Positions 49,359 to 57,960 of a stretch of 58,364 bases of DNA are shown here, in pieces. This DNA comes from Bacteroidia bacterium (GTDB lineage Bacteria > Bacteroidota > Bacteroidia > UKL13-3): positions 1-58,364 of the forward strand of contig JAGVLJ010000018.1 in the NCBI GenBank assembly GCA_020049855.1, in the 5' to 3' direction. A program made the translations under genes and the position numbers. Under the pieces are notes generated by a model that worked only from the letters and a program-made list of their open reading frames with translations, ran no database searches and was not told the DNA's origin. Position 1 is the first letter of the stretch. Each line of letters begins with the position of its first letter.

Positions 49359-49668
49359 CATAATTTTTTGGATTTTTGGCAGTACATACTACGGGGCAGG
49401 ACGCGTTATGAAACCGAATACAAATTACTTGTGCGTTAACTTCGGTGAACTTGTATGTATTGCAGTTATACAGAGATTTAGTATATATATAATTCAGTTA
49501 CAGGTAACTGTAAAACGAGCAACATCACAACAGCCTGCCACGGATTTAAAACGGAAGGAGTAAACCATTTTTCAAAATTTTGTCTGCCGAAACACAATGC
49601 CGCCCGAAGGCAAATTTAAAGTATGCCCCCCTTATTCCGTTTCTGGAAAATTATCTCAAATATTTAGT
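49359..49668. other. Gene-free stretch upstream of the metal-efflux operon
   Basis: About 310 nt without a credible gene between the gld operon terminator and the metal-efflux promoter. It contains a 7-bp palindrome at 49495-49510 (operator candidate) and an A/T-rich run GTATATATATAATTCAG next to it. I saw no tRNA, ArsR/MerR-type regulator or integrase remnant. Confidence 0.6.
49495..49510. promoter_or_regulatory. Palindrome CAGTTAC-AG-GTAACTG, possible operator
   Basis: A perfect 7-bp inverted repeat with a 2-nt centre, preceded by a TATATATATA tract, lies about 170 nt upstream of the first gene of the metal-efflux operon. Metal-responsive repressors bind palindromes of this size, but no repressor gene is in the window. 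It could also be a decoy. Low confidence. Confidence 0.3.
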
Positions 49669-49676
49669 TACCTTTG
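49669..49676 (+). promoter_or_regulatory. -7 promoter element of the metal-efflux operon
   Basis: TACCTTTG is followed by CCAAA and a GTG codon (49682) that opens the signal peptide of the DUF6660-like protein. The predicted transcript would start at about the GTG, i.e. leaderless, as for the glycosyltransferase gene at 44179. Confidence 0.45.
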
Positions 49677-49681
49677 CCAAA

Positions 49682-49999
49682 GTGAAAATCAGAAATTACA
49701 TCGCAGCCCTTCTATCAGTGTTTTTGCTCGCACTGACGCTTATGCCATGTAACGACACCTGTAACACACTGAGGGAAGGCACATCAACAACTTTTCATCC
49801 AATACAAGACCACCAAACCTACAATGACATTTGCAGTCCGTTTTGTTTTTGCATCTGTTGTTCAACCGTAATGACTGTTCACAATTTTCCAAACTTCGAG
49901 TTCATACAGCACTTATCTGTTCGGAGTTTTTCAATGCTTGAACAAATGTTTCTTTTAAAGAAGCAAGCAACTATTTGGCAACCGCCAAAAATCAGTTAA
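49682..49999 (+). CDS. DUF6660-like small exported protein of the metal-efflux operon
   Basis: The 105-residue protein, started at the GTG at 49682, opens with a signal-like VKIRNYIAALLSVFLLALTL followed by MPCNDTCNT. The Cys-rich central part (DICSPFCFCICCSTVMTV) suggests metal or redox chemistry and matches the DUF6660 type that precedes CusA-family genes in Bacteroidota. A longer in-frame version (from 49580) would add 34 residues without signal character. It lies 93 nt before the RND gene. Confidence 0.65.
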   Translation: MKIRNYIAALLSVFLLALTLMPCNDTCNTLREGTSTTFHPIQDHQTYNDICSPFCFCICCSTVMTVHNFPNFEFIQHLSVRSFSMLEQMFLLKKQATIWQPPKIS

Positions 50000-50092: not shown

Positions 50093-53000
50093 ATGCTCAA
50101 TAAAATAATTGCGTTCTCTATAAAGAACAAACTCATCATAGGGCTTTTTCTTTTTGCCCTCATTGGTTATGGCAGTTACCAAATCACTAAACTGCCTATT
50201 GATGCCGTGCCCGACATCACAAACAATCAGGTGCAGGTAATCACAGTTACACCTTCGTTGGGTGCTCCCGATGTGGAACGCCTCATTACTTTTCCCATTG
50301 AACAAGCCAACAGTAATATACCCGGACTGAAAGAAATCCGAAGCTTCTCACGGTTCGGACTTTCACTTATCACCATTGTTTTTGATGATGATGTAGATAT
50401 TTACTGGGCAAGGCAGCAAGTAACTGAACGGCTAAAGTTAGCACAGGACCAAATTCCTAATGGTGTTGGTTCGCCTGAGTTAGCTCCCGTTACAACAGGC
50501 TTGGGAGAAATTTATCAATATGTGATCCGTGCCAAACAAGGTTACGAAACCAAATACGATGCAACCGAATTACGAACTATTCAAGACTGGATTGTTCGCA
50601 GACAATTGTTAGGAGTGAAAGGTGTTGCCGATGTAAGCAGTTTTGGCGGCAAGTTAAAACAATACGAAATTGCCGTTAATGCAAACAAGTTAAAATCTTA
50701 TGGCATTACCATAAGCGATGTATTCACCGCTTTGGAAAAGAACAACGAAAACACAGGCGGTGCATACATTGAAAAAAAATCAACAGTCCTTTATATCCGA
50801 AGTGAGGGTTTAATTGGAAACACAGACGATATAAAAAACATTGTTGTCAGAAACACCGCCAACGGCACACCGCTTTTGATAAATGATGTTGCTGATGTCC
50901 GCATTGGTGCAGCCATTCGTTACGGTGCTATGACCTACAATGATGAAGGTGAAGCAGCAGGCGGTGTGGTGCTGATGCTTAAAGGTGCAAACAGCAATCT
51001 CACAATTAAAAATGTAAAAGAACGCATTGAACAAATTGCAAAAACATTACCCGAAGGAGTAGAAATAGAACCTTTCATTGATAGAACAAAAATGGTGAAC
51101 AACGCTATCACCACAGTTTCAAAAAACTTAATGGAAGGTGCATTAATTGTAATTTTGGTTTTGGTTTTATTCTTAGGAAATTTCAGGGCAGGAATTTTAG
51201 TTGCCTCTGTAATTCCGTTGGCAATGTTGTTTGCAGTAATCATGATGAACCTTTTCGGAGTTAGCGGAAACCTCATGAGTTTAGGGGCTTTGGATTTCGG
51301 GTTGATTGTGGACGGGGCAGTAATTATTGTAGAAGCCGTGATGCACGGCTTAACACATAGTAGAAAATTAGGAGTTCATCACAGGGTTACGCAAAACGAA
51401 ATGGACACCGAAGTAAATCATTCGGCAAGCCGAATGATGAACAGTGCAGTATTCGGGCAAATCATTATTCTGATTGTTTACTTACCCATCTTTACACTTG
51501 AAGGAATTGAAGGAAAAATGTTTAAGCCAATGGCTCAAACCGTTGCTTTCGCTTTGTTGGGTGCATTCATTCTTTCCATCACTTACATACCTATGATGAG
51601 TGCTTTTTTCCTGAGCAAAAAGATTTCTCACAAAAAAAATATCAGTGATAGAATGATGGACTTTTTTATAAATGTCCATCAGAAATATCTAGGTAGGGTT
51701 TTGAATTTCCCAAAAACGATTGTAGGAATTTCAGTTGGCTTGTTACTGATTGCTTCTTTCGTATTCTCAAAAATGGGAGGCGAATTTATCCCTGCATTGG
51801 AAGAAGGCGACTTTGCAGTAGAAACAAGAGTGCTTACAGGAAGCAACATCAACACAAGTGTTGATGCCTGTTTGAGAGCAGCACATATCTTAAAAAAAGA
51901 ATTTCCCGAAGTAATTAGAGTGGTGGGCAAAGTTGGTAGCGGAGAAATCCCCACCGACCCAATGCCAATGGAAGCAACCGATTTGATGGTAATATTAAAA
52001 GACAAAAAGGAATGGACATCAGCAGAAACATTTGATGAATTAAAAAACAAAATGGCAGAAGCATTGGAAGATGTTCCCGGAGTTACTTATGGCTTTCAAT
52101 ATCCCGTGCAAATGCGTTTCAATGAATTGATGGCAGGTTCAAAGCAAGATATAGTTTGTAAAATTTACGGTGAAAACTTAGACACACTTGCAAAGTATTC
52201 TCAACTATTGGGTGATGTAACAGGTCACATTGAAGGAGCAAAAGATATTTATGTAGAACGCATCACAGGTTTGCCGCAGGTAATTATTCAATACAAACGC
52301 AACATCATTGCTCAATATGGTTTAAACATTGACGACATAAATAAAGTAGTGAACACCGCCTTTGCAGGACAAAGCAGCGGAAAAGTTTATGAAGATGAAA
52401 AGCGTTTTGATTTGGTGGTTCGCCTTGCAGGTGAAAACCGCAAAGAGTTGGAGGATGTGCAGAACCTTTTAATCCCAACTTCGCAGGGAACACAAATTCC
52501 TTTGTATCAGGTTGCCGATGTTGCCATTCAGGAAAGTATAAATCAAATTCAGCGTGATGATGCAAAACGAAGAATTATTGTTGGATTTAATGTTCGGGGC
52601 AGAGATGTTCAAAGCATTGTAAAAGAATTACAGGATAAAGTAGATAAGCAACTAAAACTGCCAACAGGCTACTATATTAAATACGGTGGAACTTTTGAAA
52701 ATTTAGTGGCTGCAAAAAACCGGTTGTCCATTGCAGTTCCCGTTTCATTGCTTCTGATTTTTCTTCTACTCTACTTTGCTTTCGGTTCAGTAAAACAAGG
52801 GTTGCTAATTTATTCAGCAATTCCACTTTCTGCCATTGGCGGAATTTTATTTTTAGCCCTGAGAGGAATGCCCTTCAGCATCAGTGCCGGTGTGGGTTTC
52901 ATTGCTTTGTTTGGTGTAGCAGTGCTGAATGGAATTGTTTTGATTGCTGAATTTAACCGAATAAAAGCAGAAGGGGAAACCGACACCCAGCAAATTGTAC

Positions 53001-54445
53001 TGAAGGGAACAAAGCTTCGTTTGCGGCCCGTGTTAATGACTGCCTTTGTTGCTTCGCTCGGCTTTTTACCAATGGCTATTAGCAACGGTTCGGGTGCAGA
53101 AGTGCAACGGCCTTTGGCAACCGTTGTAATTGGGGGTCTCTTATTGGCTACATTCCTAACACTTTTTGTTCTACCTGTTCTCTACATTATTTTTGAAAAA
53201 GGTTTTTCCTTAAAACTGAAAAGGAAAATCACCATCACAACAACCATTCTTTTACTGTTCGCGAATTGTCAACTTTCTTTTGCACAAACACCAATCACTT
53301 TGCAAACTGCAATAGATACCGCTTTAAAAAATAACCTGACTGTAAAGAATGAAAAACTAAATGCAGCATATCAAAAAATGCTGAAAGCTGCAGCCGTTGA
53401 TATTCCGCAAACAAACTTAACAAGCGAATACGGGCAATTCAATTCATTTTATAAAGATACCAAGTTTGGAATTTCGCAAGGTATTAGCTTTCCTGCAGTT
53501 TATGCAAAACAAAAATTGCTACAGGACGAATACTATAAAAGCAGTTTATTAAATGTTGCATTAAAAGAGGCTGAACTAAAAAAGCAGGTAAGCGAAATTT
53601 TTTACTTACTGATTTATTTGCAGCAAAAGCAAAAAATTCTGTTGCAAAACGATAGTGTATATGCCTCATTTCTTGAAAAAGCAAACTTGCGTTTCTCCAA
53701 AGGTGAAAGTAATGTGTTGGAAAAGACCACTGCCGAAACACAGCGGGGACAAATTGCAATTCAACTTACCCAGTTAAAGAGCAGTATTGAAATTTTCCAG
53801 CTTCAGTTTCAATTGTTGTTAAACACTACCACCATTTTCATTCCTTCAAGTGAAAACCTGAAATTGATTTTTGCAGCTTCACTTGACTCCTCTTTAGTGA
53901 GCAACCATCCTAAAATAAATATTTTGCAGCAGCAAAAAAATATTTCCTTGGCGAATAGACAATTAGAAAAATTCAAACTGTTACCCAACTTAAATTTAGG
54001 TTACAGTAATCAAAGTATTCAGGGAACCGGTAACGATAATAAGTTTTATTTGCCTGCTAGTCGTTTTCAGTCCATTCAGTTGGGTGTGGGCGTGCCGTTA
54101 TTTTTTGGTTCTCAAAAAGCAAAAATTAATTCGAGCAAAATACTTCAGTTCATTTCAGAAAATAATTATCAGTTAGGGTTACAAATCCTAAAAACCGAAT
54201 ATCACGCTGCATTTAAACAATATCAAACGCAATTGCAAACGGTAAAATATTTTGAGGACACCGCCTTACAAAATGCAAGCATCATTACCAAAACTGCCAA
54301 TAATCAGTTTGCAAATGGCGACATAAATTATCTGGAATGGGCTATGCTTATCAACAACGCAATTTCTATTCAAAACAATTACACCGATGCGGTAAAAGAC
54401 CTTAATCAAACTATTATTCAACTCAATTTCTTAACTTCTAAATAA
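50093..54445 (+). CDS. CusA/CzcA heavy-metal RND pump fused to a TolC-type outer-membrane component
   Basis: The 1450-residue fusion has an RND part (1 to about 1035) with N-terminal IIAFSIKNKLIIGLFLFALI, two large periplasmic loops, and the heavy-metal signature LDFGLIVDGAVIIVEAV (D401, D407, E414). This signature is of the Zn/Co/Cd/Ni subgroup (DFGxxxDGAxxxVE), not the Cu/Ag subgroup. After the last RND TM comes KRKITITTTILLLFANCQLS and FAQ (about 1043-1065), which looks like an embedded signal sequence. Then a TolC/CzcC outer-membrane efflux domain (ITLQTAIDTALKNNLTVKNE; AELKKQVSEIFYLLIYLQQK). Such RND-OMF fusions are known in Bacteroidota. The second part may be cleaved after FAQ. Its adaptor follows 9 nt downstream. 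Confidence 0.92.
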   Translation: MLNKIIAFSIKNKLIIGLFLFALIGYGSYQITKLPIDAVPDITNNQVQVITVTPSLGAPDVERLITFPIEQANSNIPGLKEIRSFSRFGLSLITIVFDDDVDIYWARQQVTERLKLAQDQIPNGVGSPELAPVTTGLGEIYQYVIRAKQGYETKYDATELRTIQDWIVRRQLLGVKGVADVSSFGGKLKQYEIAVNANKLKSYGITISDVFTALEKNNENTGGAYIEKKSTVLYIRSEGLIGNTDDIKNIVVRNTANGTPLLINDVADVRIGAAIRYGAMTYNDEGEAAGGVVLMLKGANSNLTIKNVKERIEQIAKTLPEGVEIEPFIDRTKMVNNAITTVSKNLMEGALIVILVLVLFLGNFRAGILVASVIPLAMLFAVIMMNLFGVSGNLMSLGALDFGLIVDGAVIIVEAVMHGLTHSRKLGVHHRVTQNEMDTEVNHSASRMMNSAVFGQIIILIVYLPIFTLEGIEGKMFKPMAQTVAFALLGAFILSITYIPMMSAFFLSKKISHKKNISDRMMDFFINVHQKYLGRVLNFPKTIVGISVGLLLIASFVFSKMGGEFIPALEEGDFAVETRVLTGSNINTSVDACLRAAHILKKEFPEVIRVVGKVGSGEIPTDPMPMEATDLMVILKDKKEWTSAETFDELKNKMAEALEDVPGVTYGFQYPVQMRFNELMAGSKQDIVCKIYGENLDTLAKYSQLLGDVTGHIEGAKDIYVERITGLPQVIIQYKRNIIAQYGLNIDDINKVVNTAFAGQSSGKVYEDEKRFDLVVRLAGENRKELEDVQNLLIPTSQGTQIPLYQVADVAIQESINQIQRDDAKRRIIVGFNVRGRDVQSIVKELQDKVDKQLKLPTGYYIKYGGTFENLVAAKNRLSIAVPVSLLLIFLLLYFAFGSVKQGLLIYSAIPLSAIGGILFLALRGMPFSISAGVGFIALFGVAVLNGIVLIAEFNRIKAEGETDTQQIVLKGTKLRLRPVLMTAFVASLGFLPMAISNGSGAEVQRPLATVVIGGLLLATFLTLFVLPVLYIIFEKGFSLKLKRKITITTTILLLFANCQLSFAQTPITLQTAIDTALKNNLTVKNEKLNAAYQKMLKAAAVDIPQTNLTSEYGQFNSFYKDTKFGISQGISFPAVYAKQKLLQDEYYKSSLLNVALKEAELKKQVSEIFYLLIYLQQKQKILLQNDSVYASFLEKANLRFSKGESNVLEKTTAETQRGQIAIQLTQLKSSIEIFQLQFQLLLNTTTIFIPSSENLKLIFAASLDSSLVSNHPKINILQQQKNISLANRQLEKFKLLPNLNLGYSNQSIQGTGNDNKFYLPASRFQSIQLGVGVPLFFGSQKAKINSSKILQFISENNYQLGLQILKTEYHAAFKQYQTQLQTVKYFEDTALQNASIITKTANNQFANGDINYLEWAMLINNAISIQNNYTDAVKDLNQTIIQLNFLTSK

Positions 54446-54454
54446 ATTTCAATC

Positions 54455-55594
54455 ATGACAAAATACGTCATTATAGCAATAGCATTTTCAATTCTTTCGT
54501 CTTGTGGGGGCAAAAATACAGTAGATGGAAGCACCGAAGAAGCAGCAAGCGAAATCACAGTTAAACTCACCGATGCACAATTAAAAAACTCCGAAATACA
54601 AACAGGAAAAATTGAGCAACGCAATATTTCTTCACTTTTAAAAGTGAATGGAAAAATTGAAGTGCCTCCGCAAAATATGGTTTCCGTTAGTGTGCCAATG
54701 GGTGGATACTTAAAGTCAACCAAATTACTTGCCGGTATGCACATCAGCAAAGGCGAAGTGATTGCCCTAATGGAAGACCAACAATATATTCAGTTGCAAC
54801 AAGATTATTTAACTGCGAAAGCAAGGTTCACTTCTATTGAAGCTGAATATTTTCGGCAAATGGAATTGAACCAAAGCAAAGCCAGCAGCGACAAAGTTTT
54901 TCAAAATGCACAAACGGAATACGTCTCGCAAAAAGTGTTGATTAAATCTTTAGAGGAAAAATTAAAACTCATCAGCATTAACCCAGAAAAATTAACTGAA
55001 AACTCCATTTCAAAAAGCCTAAACGTCTATTCACCTATTGATGGTTTTGTTTCACAGGTAAAACAGAATATTGGAAAATATGTAATGCCAACTGATGTAC
55101 TGTTTGAACTGGTAAATCCGGCCGACATTCATTTAACGCTCACCATTTTTGAAAAAGATTTGTATAAAATCTCCATCGGACAAAAAATATTTGCTTACAA
55201 CAATACGAACCCCGACAAAAAATACATCTGCGAAATTATTTTGATTGGCAAAGATGTTACACCCGAAAGAACCATTCAAGTGCAATGCCATTTTGAGCAA
55301 TACGACAAAGCCCTCATTCCCGGAATGTATATGAATGCTGAAGTGGAAGTAGCCACCAACAACGCTTTTGTAATCCCAAACGATGGCTTGGTTCGCTTTG
55401 AAAACAAGCAATATGTTTTTATCGAAACCGGAAACAAAAAATATGAAATGCAGGAAGTACTTACACAAAATACCGAAAACGGGTTTACACAAATCACTTT
55501 CCCCGATAGCACCGATATGAGCAATAAAACTTTTGTTATCAAAGGTGCATACACCCTTTTAATGAAAATGAAAAACGCGGAGGAAGAAGAATAA
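54455..55594 (+). CDS. Periplasmic adaptor (CusB/CzcB-type membrane-fusion protein)
   Basis: The 379-residue lipoprotein (signal TKYVIIAIAFSILSSCGG, Cys near residue 17) contains barrel-sandwich, helical hairpin and beta-barrel parts: NGKIEVPPQNMVSVSVPMGG, LQQDYLTAKARFTSIEAEYF, YSPIDGFVSQVKQNIGKYV and a C-terminal FVIPNDGLVRFENKQYVFIE. It links the RND pump to the outer-membrane component. No CusB-specific Met triad is evident, consistent with divalent rather than Cu(I) substrates. Between the pump and the ATPase in one operon. Confidence 0.9.
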   Translation: MTKYVIIAIAFSILSSCGGKNTVDGSTEEAASEITVKLTDAQLKNSEIQTGKIEQRNISSLLKVNGKIEVPPQNMVSVSVPMGGYLKSTKLLAGMHISKGEVIALMEDQQYIQLQQDYLTAKARFTSIEAEYFRQMELNQSKASSDKVFQNAQTEYVSQKVLIKSLEEKLKLISINPEKLTENSISKSLNVYSPIDGFVSQVKQNIGKYVMPTDVLFELVNPADIHLTLTIFEKDLYKISIGQKIFAYNNTNPDKKYICEIILIGKDVTPERTIQVQCHFEQYDKALIPGMYMNAEVEVATNNAFVIPNDGLVRFENKQYVFIETGNKKYEMQEVLTQNTENGFTQITFPDSTDMSNKTFVIKGAYTLLMKMKNAEEEE

Positions 55595-55623: not shown

Positions 55624-57528
55624 ATGAAACTACCAATCAACGACAAAAAATTTCTCTTTCTTCTTTTCGCAATCACAATAGTTGTTGCCTTAGAAGTTTT
55701 ATCCATTATCGGCATTCATATACCAATGCCTTATGCACCTTTCGTTTTCGCCACATTCATTCTGGGAATTGGCTACAATGTTTTATGGAACGGGGTAAAA
55801 GCAATCTTCAAACTCAAATTCAGCAACATCAATTTACTTATGCTCATTGCAGTTATCGGAGCATTTTATTTAAAAGAATTTCCCGAAGCAGCAGTTTTGG
55901 TTGTGCTATTTGTTTTGGGAGAACGATTGGAAGAAATCGGAATTGCCAACAGCAAATCTGCTTTAGATGAATTAGTAAGCAAAGCACCGAAAACAGCTTT
56001 TGTAAAATCAGAAAATGCAAATGTGGCTATTGATAAAATTGCAGTCGGGACAATTATACAAGTGAAAGCAGGTGAAATGATACCCCTTGATGGAAAAATT
56101 ATTTCAGGAGAAACCACTGTTGACGAAGCAGCCATTACCGGTGAACCCATCCCAAAAGACAAATATATTGGTGATACTTTATTTGCAGGAACCCTAAACA
56201 AAAATGGTTTTATTGAAGTGAAGACAACCAAACTTTCTGTTGACACTACTTTTTCAAAAATTGTTCGACTCACTTTTGAAGCACAAGCAAACAAAAGCGA
56301 AACGCAAAAATTCATTCAGCAATTTGCCAGATATTACACTCCCGCCATGCTTGCACTTTCCGTTCTTCTGTTTGTTGTTCCTGTTTTCATTTTTCATTTA
56401 GATTTTAACCATTGGTTACAGCAAGCCATTACATTGCTTGTTATCGCTTGTCCATGTGCATTAGTTATATCAACACCGGTAGCCATTTATGCAGCTATCG
56501 GAAACGCATCTTCAAAAGGGGCATTGGTAAAAGGCGGAAAATATCTGGAAGCATTGGCAACTATCAAAGCGATTGCATTAGACAAAACACGAACAATAAC
56601 TTTTGGCAATCCTATTGTCTCAGATATTTTTCCTTTGAACGGCACAAGCCGTGAAGAACTTTTGGCTTGCACAGCAGGAGCAGAAATATTTTCCGAACAT
56701 CCATTGGCACAAGCCATCGTTGATGCAAGCAACAAAGAAGGATTTGAACCGCACAAAACCGAAGCATTCAAAAGCATCATGGGCAAAGGTGCAACAGCAA
56801 AATGTTTGGTATGTGAGGACGAAACAATTTATGTAGGCAAATTGGAATTTATAAAAGAGCATCAGCACACCGATAACGAAACCGAAAAAATTGTAGAGCA
56901 ACTTTCAGCACAAGGAAAAACAAGCGTAGTAGTAAGTTTTGGTGATGGAGTGGCGGGAGTAATTGGTTTGATGGATCAAATAAAACCCGACAGTGCGGCA
57001 GCATTAAAAGAAATTGAAACTATGGGCATTGAACCTGTAATGCTCACAGGCGACAGTGAAAAAGCAGCAAACTACATAGCACAACAAGTAGGCATAAAAA
57101 AAATATTTGGAAATATGTTACCCGAAAACAAATCCGAAAAAATCAAAGAACTACTGCAACAGTATGGTAAAGTGGCAATGGTAGGCGATGGAATAAACGA
57201 TGCACCTGCATTAGCACAAAGCACCGTAGGCATAGCAATGGGAGCAGCAGGAAGCGACACTGCAATAGAAACCGCAAACATTGCATTGATGAACGACAAA
57301 CTTTCACTCATTCCGTTTTTAATTCGGCTCTCACAAAAAACATTACGCAGAATAAAATTCAACACCATTGGAGCAATAGGAGTAAAACTAATTTTTATCA
57401 CATTGGCTTTCGTTGGTTACAGCAATTTAGTTTTCGCCATAGCCGCAGATGTTGGAGTAACGCTTGTAGTCATCCTCACAAGTTTGCAATTGATGAAATT
57501 TGAAAATCACACTCCTGAAAATGTTTGA
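55624..57528 (+). CDS. P1B-type heavy-metal-transporting ATPase (Zn/Cd/Pb type) with unusual DKTRT site
   Basis: The 634-residue ATPase has no N-terminal heavy-metal-associated domain. It contains the actuator VDEAAITGEPIPKD, the intramembrane CPC (C276, P277, C278) in LLVIACPCALVIS, the HP locus SEHPLAQAIV, and the GDGINDAPALAQSTVGIAMG hinge. A C-terminal DVGVTLVVI in the last TM fits the Zn/Cd/Pb (P1B-2) group. The phosphorylation motif reads DKTRTITFG (D320) instead of the almost universal DKTGT. A CxxC pair (C394, C397) lies in the nucleotide-binding domain. The reading frame is intact. It would export metal from the cytoplasm for hand-off to the RND pump. Confidence 0.9.
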   Translation: MKLPINDKKFLFLLFAITIVVALEVLSIIGIHIPMPYAPFVFATFILGIGYNVLWNGVKAIFKLKFSNINLLMLIAVIGAFYLKEFPEAAVLVVLFVLGERLEEIGIANSKSALDELVSKAPKTAFVKSENANVAIDKIAVGTIIQVKAGEMIPLDGKIISGETTVDEAAITGEPIPKDKYIGDTLFAGTLNKNGFIEVKTTKLSVDTTFSKIVRLTFEAQANKSETQKFIQQFARYYTPAMLALSVLLFVVPVFIFHLDFNHWLQQAITLLVIACPCALVISTPVAIYAAIGNASSKGALVKGGKYLEALATIKAIALDKTRTITFGNPIVSDIFPLNGTSREELLACTAGAEIFSEHPLAQAIVDASNKEGFEPHKTEAFKSIMGKGATAKCLVCEDETIYVGKLEFIKEHQHTDNETEKIVEQLSAQGKTSVVVSFGDGVAGVIGLMDQIKPDSAAALKEIETMGIEPVMLTGDSEKAANYIAQQVGIKKIFGNMLPENKSEKIKELLQQYGKVAMVGDGINDAPALAQSTVGIAMGAAGSDTAIETANIALMNDKLSLIPFLIRLSQKTLRRIKFNTIGAIGVKLIFITLAFVGYSNLVFAIAADVGVTLVVILTSLQLMKFENHTPENV

Positions 57529-57559
57529 CCGAAACTTTTTTCATTTAGAAAAACTCATT

Positions 57560-57567
57560 TATCTTTG
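57560..57567 (+). promoter_or_regulatory. -7 promoter element of the MASSS-family pseudogene
   Basis: TATCTTTG at 57560-57567 fits TAnnTTTG and lies 48 nt before the ATG at 57616. Confidence 0.4.
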
Positions 57568-57615
57568 CGAAATATAATTTAAGCCACTTTTCAATAACTA
57601 AAAACCTTTTCACTC

Positions 57616-57772
57616 ATGGCATCATCATCAGAAACAGGACATGCAAATAAAGAGTCCAACTTTGAAGATTTAACTTACTACTGCATTGGGCTACCCAGCA
57701 ACTTATAACCTATCAAAGGTATCCATTAACCAAATACGGTTATTCAATCCGGTGCATTGCACAGAAGGGTAG
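57616..57772 (+). pseudogene. Truncated MASSS-family hypothetical gene
   Basis: ATG at 57616 starts MASSSETGHANKESNFEDL, then a stop. A one-base shift at about 57698 lets it continue as ATYNLSKVSINQIRLFN to a TAG at 57770. I recognise the MASSS-TGHA-x-x-ANFE-L start and the TYNxSK segment as the first 40 or so residues of a common hypothetical Bacteroidota protein usually several times longer. The remainder is missing. The following 160 nt hold no recognisable gene. Confidence 0.6.
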
Positions 57773-57932
57773 CTGCTCGGTACGAACCGGCTAACAAACC
57801 AGTTCTCCATGGCCAAAATTGTCTACTGGGAGTATATCTTTTGCGGGTGTCCCCCAGCGGGATTGACGCCAGCCGATAGGTGAGAGGTAATTGGAGGTTG
57901 TTTATGTTTTTTTGATTTTGTGTTAATCTTGT

Positions 57933-57959
57933 GGTAGGTTGGTTCTCATCCAATCTACC
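57933..57959 (-). terminator. Hairpin downstream of alr
   Basis: GGTAGGTTGG (57933-57942), loop TTCTCAT, CCAATCTACC (57950-57959), a 10-bp stem with one wobble pair, just past the alr stop. No U tract on the minus strand, so its terminator role is uncertain. Confidence 0.45.
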
Positions 57960-57960
57960 G

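Follow-up and report, generated by a model that had tools for sequence, protein, structure and literature searches.

An arginine in place of the phosphorylation-loop glycine in a subfamily of P1B metal-transporting P-type ATPases

The DNA analyzed here (the window) is a stretch of 58,364 nucleotides from the genome of a Bacteroidia bacterium (contig JAGVLJ010000018.1; genome of 2.9 Mb in 84 contigs, with six P-type ATPase places). It carries the gene of a metal-transporting P-type ATPase, with the genes of an RND pump and its adaptor both upstream:

50093..54445, + strand: CusA/CzcA RND metal-efflux pump fused to a TolC-type outer-membrane factor (TIGR00914 1169 bits, cut-off 701; ACR_tran, OEP)
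54455..55594, + strand: CzcB/CusB-type periplasmic adaptor (TIGR01730 123.5 bits, cut-off 94.9; HlyD_D23)
55624..57528, + strand: DKTRT-type P1B (CadA/ZntA-like) metal-transporting P-type ATPase, 634 amino acids (open reading frame and translation, Pfam, NCBIfam, AlphaFold2)
56581..56601, + strand: phosphorylation loop D320-K-T-R323-T-I-T of this ATPase (sequence; DKTRT in 45 of 118 distinct rows)

With the CzcB/NccB model TIGR00999, the adaptor scores 101.7, below the cut-off of 319.3. The ATPase scores above the cut-offs of both NCBIfam TIGR01525 and TIGR01512 (heavy-metal P-type ATPase model, 569 bits, cut-off 346; cadmium-family P-type ATPase model, 492 bits, cut-off 314). Pfam identifies an actuator domain (E1-E2_ATPase, PF00122) and a hydrolase domain (PF00702), and no HMA domain; the first helix of the AlphaFold2 model begins at residue 8. 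Five other members of the subfamily described below have more than 20 residues (24 to 82) ahead of window residue 10, judged from length alone. The model, built from a 30-row alignment (mean pLDDT 80.5, pTM 0.72), has its best PDB match in zinc-transporting ZntA (4umw; Z 37.7, rmsd 3.0, 601 residues aligned, 35% identity) and also matches the fold of ATP7B over the whole chain (7si7; Z 35.5). The remaining P-type motifs are TGE at 172-174, CPC at 276-278, HP at 359-360, TGD at 475-477 and GDGIND at 521-526. The protein thus has the TGE, TGD, GDGxND and A/P/N domain fold of P-type ATPases (by conservation, fold match and Pfam), as well as the membrane CPx and N-domain HP of P1B pumps. The P1B-2 group is marked by T(X)5QN(X)7K within TM7 and by DXG(X)7N within TM8 (PMC4932525). 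Among these residues, T573, N580, K588, D609 and G611 are present in the window pump, with F579 standing for Q and T619 for the last N. The pump resembles CadA/ZntA (P1B-2) in fold, TIGR01512 match, CPC, TGE, HP, GDGxND, TM7 Lys 588 and TM8 DxG, but differs in its DKTRT loop, in C349, H377, C394 and C397 of the N domain, in Thr for Val at 217 and in the absence of an N-terminal HMA domain. It shares the P1B architecture, CPC and whole-chain fold of CopA/ATP7B (P1B-1), but falls below the cut-off of the NCBIfam Cu-ATPase model (383 bits, cut-off 397).

Bases 56581-56601 read GAC AAA ACA CGA ACA ATA ACT in the frame of the ATPase, giving D K T R T I T with R323 encoded by CGA at 56590-56592. A sequence-only reading of the window had reported this motif and codon, and both are borne out. 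The protein departs from the DKTGT[LI]T consensus in one letter, Arg for Gly, with the Asp, the Lys and both Thr retained. Given that its other motifs and the whole-protein models are satisfied despite R323, it is classed as a variant of the P-type ATPase family rather than a standard member. The Arg variant itself is confirmed, and is well delimited within a known pump family.

The Arg is shared by all close relatives. It is present in 24 of 24 genome_contigs loci found at 78-92% identity, in a second copy within the window's own genome (G000:C23, 90% identical) and in two genomes from the same family, so that the alignment with close homologues proposed in the sequence-only reading comes out in favor of a common residue. 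Relatives at 78-92% include Flavobacterium hiemivividum TSA-D2, a strain record rather than a metagenome-assembled genome (MAG). More distant DKTRT members occur in Bacteroidota genomes (65%, 53% and 54% identity) and on a complete plasmid of Criblamydia sequanensis (Chlamydiota; 52%). Overall, DKTRT rows range from 91% down to 48% identity, and most are from Bacteroidota; one from Bdellovibrionota (L050) derives from a MAG and may reflect a binning error. Arg is encoded by CGA in 21 of 29 distinct genes, by AGA in 5, by CGC in 2 and by CGG in 1 (four duplicate genes, L062, L063, L064 and L132, were removed from this set, which was also used for dN/dS). Being common to independent genomes and encoded by four codons, the Arg is not an error. 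An altered code at CGA was also considered and rejected, as relatives specify Arg via CGC, CGG and AGA.

The searches by taxonomic rank covered Bacteroidota. At the set thresholds, a phylum-wide draw of 395 genomes gave matches in 7, and a class-wide draw of 395 gave matches in 15. New loci from the class search comprise ten DKTRT loci at 58-91% identity (L133-L142), an NKTGT locus at 51% (L143) and three DKTGT loci at 38-42% (L144-L146). Order-level searches matched 2 of 149, 9 of 44, 3 of 45 and 4 of 123 genomes, in part through known or non-member loci. A DNA pattern for DKTR-T-I-T, which admits only Ile after the motif and misses DKTRTLT members (L061, L140, L142), matched 10 of 395 Bacteroidota genomes: seven belong to the DKTRT clade, and three are unrelated frames with a Ser codon. 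The same pattern reversed, as a control, matched six genomes (counted by eye). A search of viral_contigs with the window protein gave no close relative, while one with the Criblamydia protein gave 38 loci, all DKTGT among the matches listed. In open-access full text, the string DKTRT was found only in unrelated epitopes, and no description of such pumps was found under DKTRT pumps, motif Gly substitution, N-domain cysteines or P1B subgroups in those portions of the open-access literature that were available.

A set of 118 distinct P1B-type rows contains 45 DKTRT, 71 DKTGT, one DKTLT and one NKTGT. These are open frames of at least 300 amino acids matching [DN]KTx[TS], from which motifs altered at other letters escape; they were gathered by likeness to the window pump or its relatives, and the 71 DKTGT rows are hence no census of P-type ATPases. 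Outside the DKTRT family, the closest proteins are 42-44% identical, with DKTGT in all those whose motif was read, and Gly occupies column 323 in 62 of 62 other aligned P1B pumps. In a tree inferred from 91 P1B proteins with column 323 excluded, the 29 DKTRT rows form one side of one branch (100 SH-aLRT), which adjoins CadA-type pumps and implies a single change at this column. The suggestion of a lineage-specific variant, likewise made from the sequence alone, accords with this result. A second tree of 56 rows unites 38 DKTRT rows and L143 on one branch (100 SH-aLRT). Both trees are quick searches supported by SH-aLRT alone, with no bootstrap; of the 45 DKTRT rows, the first took in 29 and the second 38. 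Purifying selection acts on the DKTRT pump genes: dN/dS against the window gene is 0.055-0.128 in 24 unsaturated pairs, with a further four pairs saturated. Catalytic and transport motifs are well kept, with TGE, CPC, D320, K321, T322 and T324 each present in 45 of 45 DKTRT rows, HP and GxG in 44 of 44, and GDGxND, the PxxK Lys and TM7 K588 each in 43 of 43; exceptions are T475, replaced by Ser in 2 of 44, and D609, replaced by Tyr in 1 of 42. It is most likely, from the trees and counts, that the subfamily arose once and that the change from Gly to Arg was then retained with few exceptions, the Arg being present in 45 of the 46 members that still possess the catalytic Asp.

Two members depart from DKTRT. 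L155 (G913:C2:1114233-1116110, from the order of G325) reads DKTLT, with Leu replacing Arg; it shares 64% identity with L066, a DKTRT protein, and retains the other motifs read as well as all four N-domain Cys/His residues. Given that L155 has Leu with the rest kept, Arg is not the sole residue allowed, and may itself be non-essential at position 323. L143 (G657:C5:935182-937104; L148 8183-10114) reads NKTGT, thereby lacking both the catalytic Asp, replaced by Asn, and the Arg. Its HP, GxG, TGD and GDGxND are also altered, and it has Val at 217 like other pumps. The 643-codon frame is open, in a 1.2-Mb genome rated 99% complete, and is flanked by genes whose starts, by eye, resemble those of pssA and dnaN. 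As the Asp is lost and several motifs are changed together, L143 looks like a catalytically dead pump, and as a single case it fits a pattern in which Arg is retained where catalysis is retained. In the tree, L143 sits within the clade next to a DKTRT protein (support of 99 SH-aLRT), but its branch is long and its placement is flagged as unsure; an intermediate that predates the Arg was considered and rejected, since this nesting makes a decayed member likelier. The L143 pump is perhaps preserved for another task.

The Arg is accompanied by other residues particular to the clade. A comparison of 29 DKTRT with 62 DKTGT proteins (at least 560 amino acids, with CPx-like and HP motifs; L001, L005 and L006 left out) yielded 21 columns that are invariant in DKTRT proteins and have the same residue in fewer than 10% of DKTGT proteins. 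Clade-specific residues of the window pump include:

56272..56274, + strand: T217, usually Val in other P1B pumps (Thr in 29 of 29; Val in 57 of 62 others)
56668..56670, + strand: C349, N-domain Cys in the helix ahead of HP (DKTRT 44 of 44, DKTGT 0 of 71)
56752..56754, + strand: H377, His just ahead of N-domain strand 379-385 (DKTRT 44 of 44; His in 3 of 71 DKTGT)
56803..56814, + strand: C394-x-x-C397, CxxC in the N-domain hairpin between strands 389-394 and 400-405 (DKTRT 44 of 44, DKTGT 0 of 71)

The full set of C349, H377, C394 and C397 is present in 44 of 44 DKTRT rows that reach the region and in 0 of 71 DKTGT rows; one of the latter (L097) contains a CxxC, but at another place within the stretch that was searched. 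This set had gone unmentioned in the sequence-only reading. Together with the CPC and HP residues, these are the only Cys and His conserved in more than 90% of DKTRT rows. In the AlphaFold2 model, C349 lies within helix 343-354, C394 ends strand 389-394 and C397 occupies the turn before strand 400-405; H377 would come beside C394 and C397 should the first two strands form a hairpin about G387-x-G389. Together, the four residues may constitute an N-domain metal or redox site, and are treated here as a candidate. Two further clade columns have lost a basic residue, namely N294 (Arg in 17 and Lys in 11 of the 62 others) and F10 at the start of the first helix (Arg in 13 and Lys in 8).

An association with RND efflux genes recurs, though not universally. 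A homologue of the window adaptor lies near the pump gene in 23 of 31 loci, a set that includes copies (L132 and L043 are the same gene), and a homologue of the RND part accompanies it in 22 of those 23. No adaptor was found in the other eight, for some of which (e.g. L039) the stretch compared includes little upstream DNA, and no RND genes lie within the stretch compared in L053, L054, L056, L057 and L128. L149 and L150 have the same gene order as the window, judged by ORF starts. Pumps 88-92% identical to the window pump are nevertheless accompanied by RND parts of 58-66% identity and adaptors of 29-36%; with pump identity this far above that of the RND genes, the two have not simply travelled together, and the mismatch could reflect transfer or a different RND paralogue.

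The Gly of DKTGT seems to matter in a standard pump, judging from a recorded variant of ATP7B. ATP7A reads DKTGT, and ATP7B D1027 corresponds to its phosphorylated Asp (PMC3489546), which makes ATP7B Gly1030 the Gly of the motif. In one table of ATP7B variants, p.Gly1030Asp is recorded with a value of 5 of 2604 in one column and with 0 in another, apparently that of the study's own patients (PMC8411542). The DKTGT loop of P4-ATPases contacts the ATP phosphate in E1, through its Asp and Thr, and the TGE-type loop in E2P, where the A and P domains meet (PMC11460456). In HAD phosphatases, a second Asp replaces the first Thr of DKTGT, and neither an N domain nor a membrane part of the kind seen in the pump is present. 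HAD phosphatases and the window pump share the same catalytic loop, and motif I of the former, DxDxT/V, admits any residue three places past the nucleophile (PMC8069645); a side chain at position 323 should therefore fit the fold.

We favor, with a probability of about 0.7, the reading that the window protein is an active Zn/Cd-type pump from a separate subfamily, in which the phosphorylation loop has been rebuilt and the N domain perhaps holds a metal site. Pump activity, the role of R323 and metal binding by the N domain are all inferred. The substrate is probably Zn, Cd and similar divalent ions, in view of the family models and operon context. The pump would work in the inner membrane beside the CzcA-OMF/CzcB-type system, which would take metal onward from the periplasm. 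Its cycle would be the usual one, with ATP held between the N and P domains, phosphate transferred to D320, and the resulting E2P state relieved of it through the TGE loop. R323 may face the mouth of the P-domain pocket, at a position left unconstrained in HAD phosphatases. As the DKTGT loop of P4-ATPases meets both ATP phosphate and the TGE-type loop (PMC11460456), R323 could touch either the ATP phosphates or the TGE loop, and in this way tune phosphorylation or dephosphorylation. C349, H377, C394 and C397 would form a metal or redox site, possibly substituting for the N-terminal HMA domain that the window pump lacks. In a bolder version, which we offer tentatively and rate as doubtful, the metal sensor has moved from an N-terminal HMA domain to the N domain, where the Cys/His set binds the substrate metal and, by way of that domain, influences ATP held against the loop rebuilt around R323, metal thereby gating phosphorylation directly.

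Alternatively, the Arg might block entry of ATP or phosphate, leaving a pump-shaped sensor or regulator that does not cycle, and whose N-domain Cys and His bind metal and signal to the Czc system. Points in favor of such a protein are the Gly found in 62 of 62 other aligned P1B pumps, the recorded variant at the same Gly of ATP7B (PMC8411542), the new N-domain Cys/His and the efflux genes of another exporter near 23 of 31 loci. We regard it as unlikely, however, given the invariance in DKTRT rows of D320, K321, T322, T324, TGE, HP, GDGxND, CPC and K588; the Asp-less L143 altered several motifs together, as expected once a protein is freed from catalysis. A further view is that this lineage needs no Gly, and that Arg was fixed by chance and persists mainly through shared descent. 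Leu in L155 and the freedom of the corresponding place in HAD phosphatases (PMC8069645) agree with chance fixation, but Arg stands in 45 of 46 Asp-bearing members across divergence that saturates synonymous sites, and survived at least three synonymous codon switches (codons read against the 91-row tree), which makes it quite improbable.

The pump could also use another phosphate donor or bind ATP differently, with R323 assuming a phosphate-binding task. R323 does sit between two motif Thr, in a loop whose Asp and Thr bind ATP phosphate in P4-ATPases (PMC11460456), and common basic residues are lost at N294 and F10, two of the 21 clade-specific columns. Nevertheless, the ATP-binding HP, GxG and G at 405 are retained, and no near-universal basic residue is lost among the clade-specific columns compared (29 vs 62), so we give this possibility very little weight. 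Sequencing error and loss-of-function mutation had both been raised in the sequence-only reading. There is strong evidence against an error, whether of sequencing or of assembly, and against a recent loss of function in the window's genome. While a single base turns Gly GGA into Arg CGA, and the genome is an 84-contig assembly, the Arg recurs in unrelated assemblies, a cultured Flavobacterium, a complete plasmid and the second genomic copy, encoded by CGA, CGC, CGG or AGA. Plain loss of function finds no support in the low dN/dS or in the near-invariance of the other catalytic residues counted; the probability of either explanation is negligible.

An old, natural and selectively maintained Arg subfamily offers a direct test of what the motif Gly is for, as R/G exchanges could be made in both directions between working pumps. 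If relocation of the metal sensor to the N domain proves true, the Gly of DKTGT would be a replaceable part rather than a requirement of P-type catalysis. The linked Cys/His set in turn makes a putative metal or redox site within a metal pump's nucleotide-binding domain open to a clear experimental test.

Several observations concern the surroundings of the DKTRT genes. Rfam and tRNA scans of the window gave no match. After the pump gene, positions 57529-57960 contain no + strand ORF of at least 80 amino acids and no Rfam match, and match only themselves in the window's own genome; the start of this stretch resembles a small broken gene. Directly before the czcA-type gene, positions 49580-49999 encode a small Cys-rich DUF6660 protein, and similar proteins, which contain the sequence DLCSPxCxCxCC, were seen by eye ahead of the RND gene in both L129 and L150; this protein may be part of the metal system. 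The second-copy pump (L127 6783-8675) is separated from another RND-type operon by MgtC-like and SulP-like genes (by eye). On the Criblamydia plasmid (L061 2262-16526), the DKTRT pump is flanked by an RND efflux set on one side and another TolC gene on the other, and the annotation nearby includes a copper oxidase, a four-helix copper-binding protein and another metal ATPase; with such genes around it, copper is a conceivable substrate of the Criblamydia pump.
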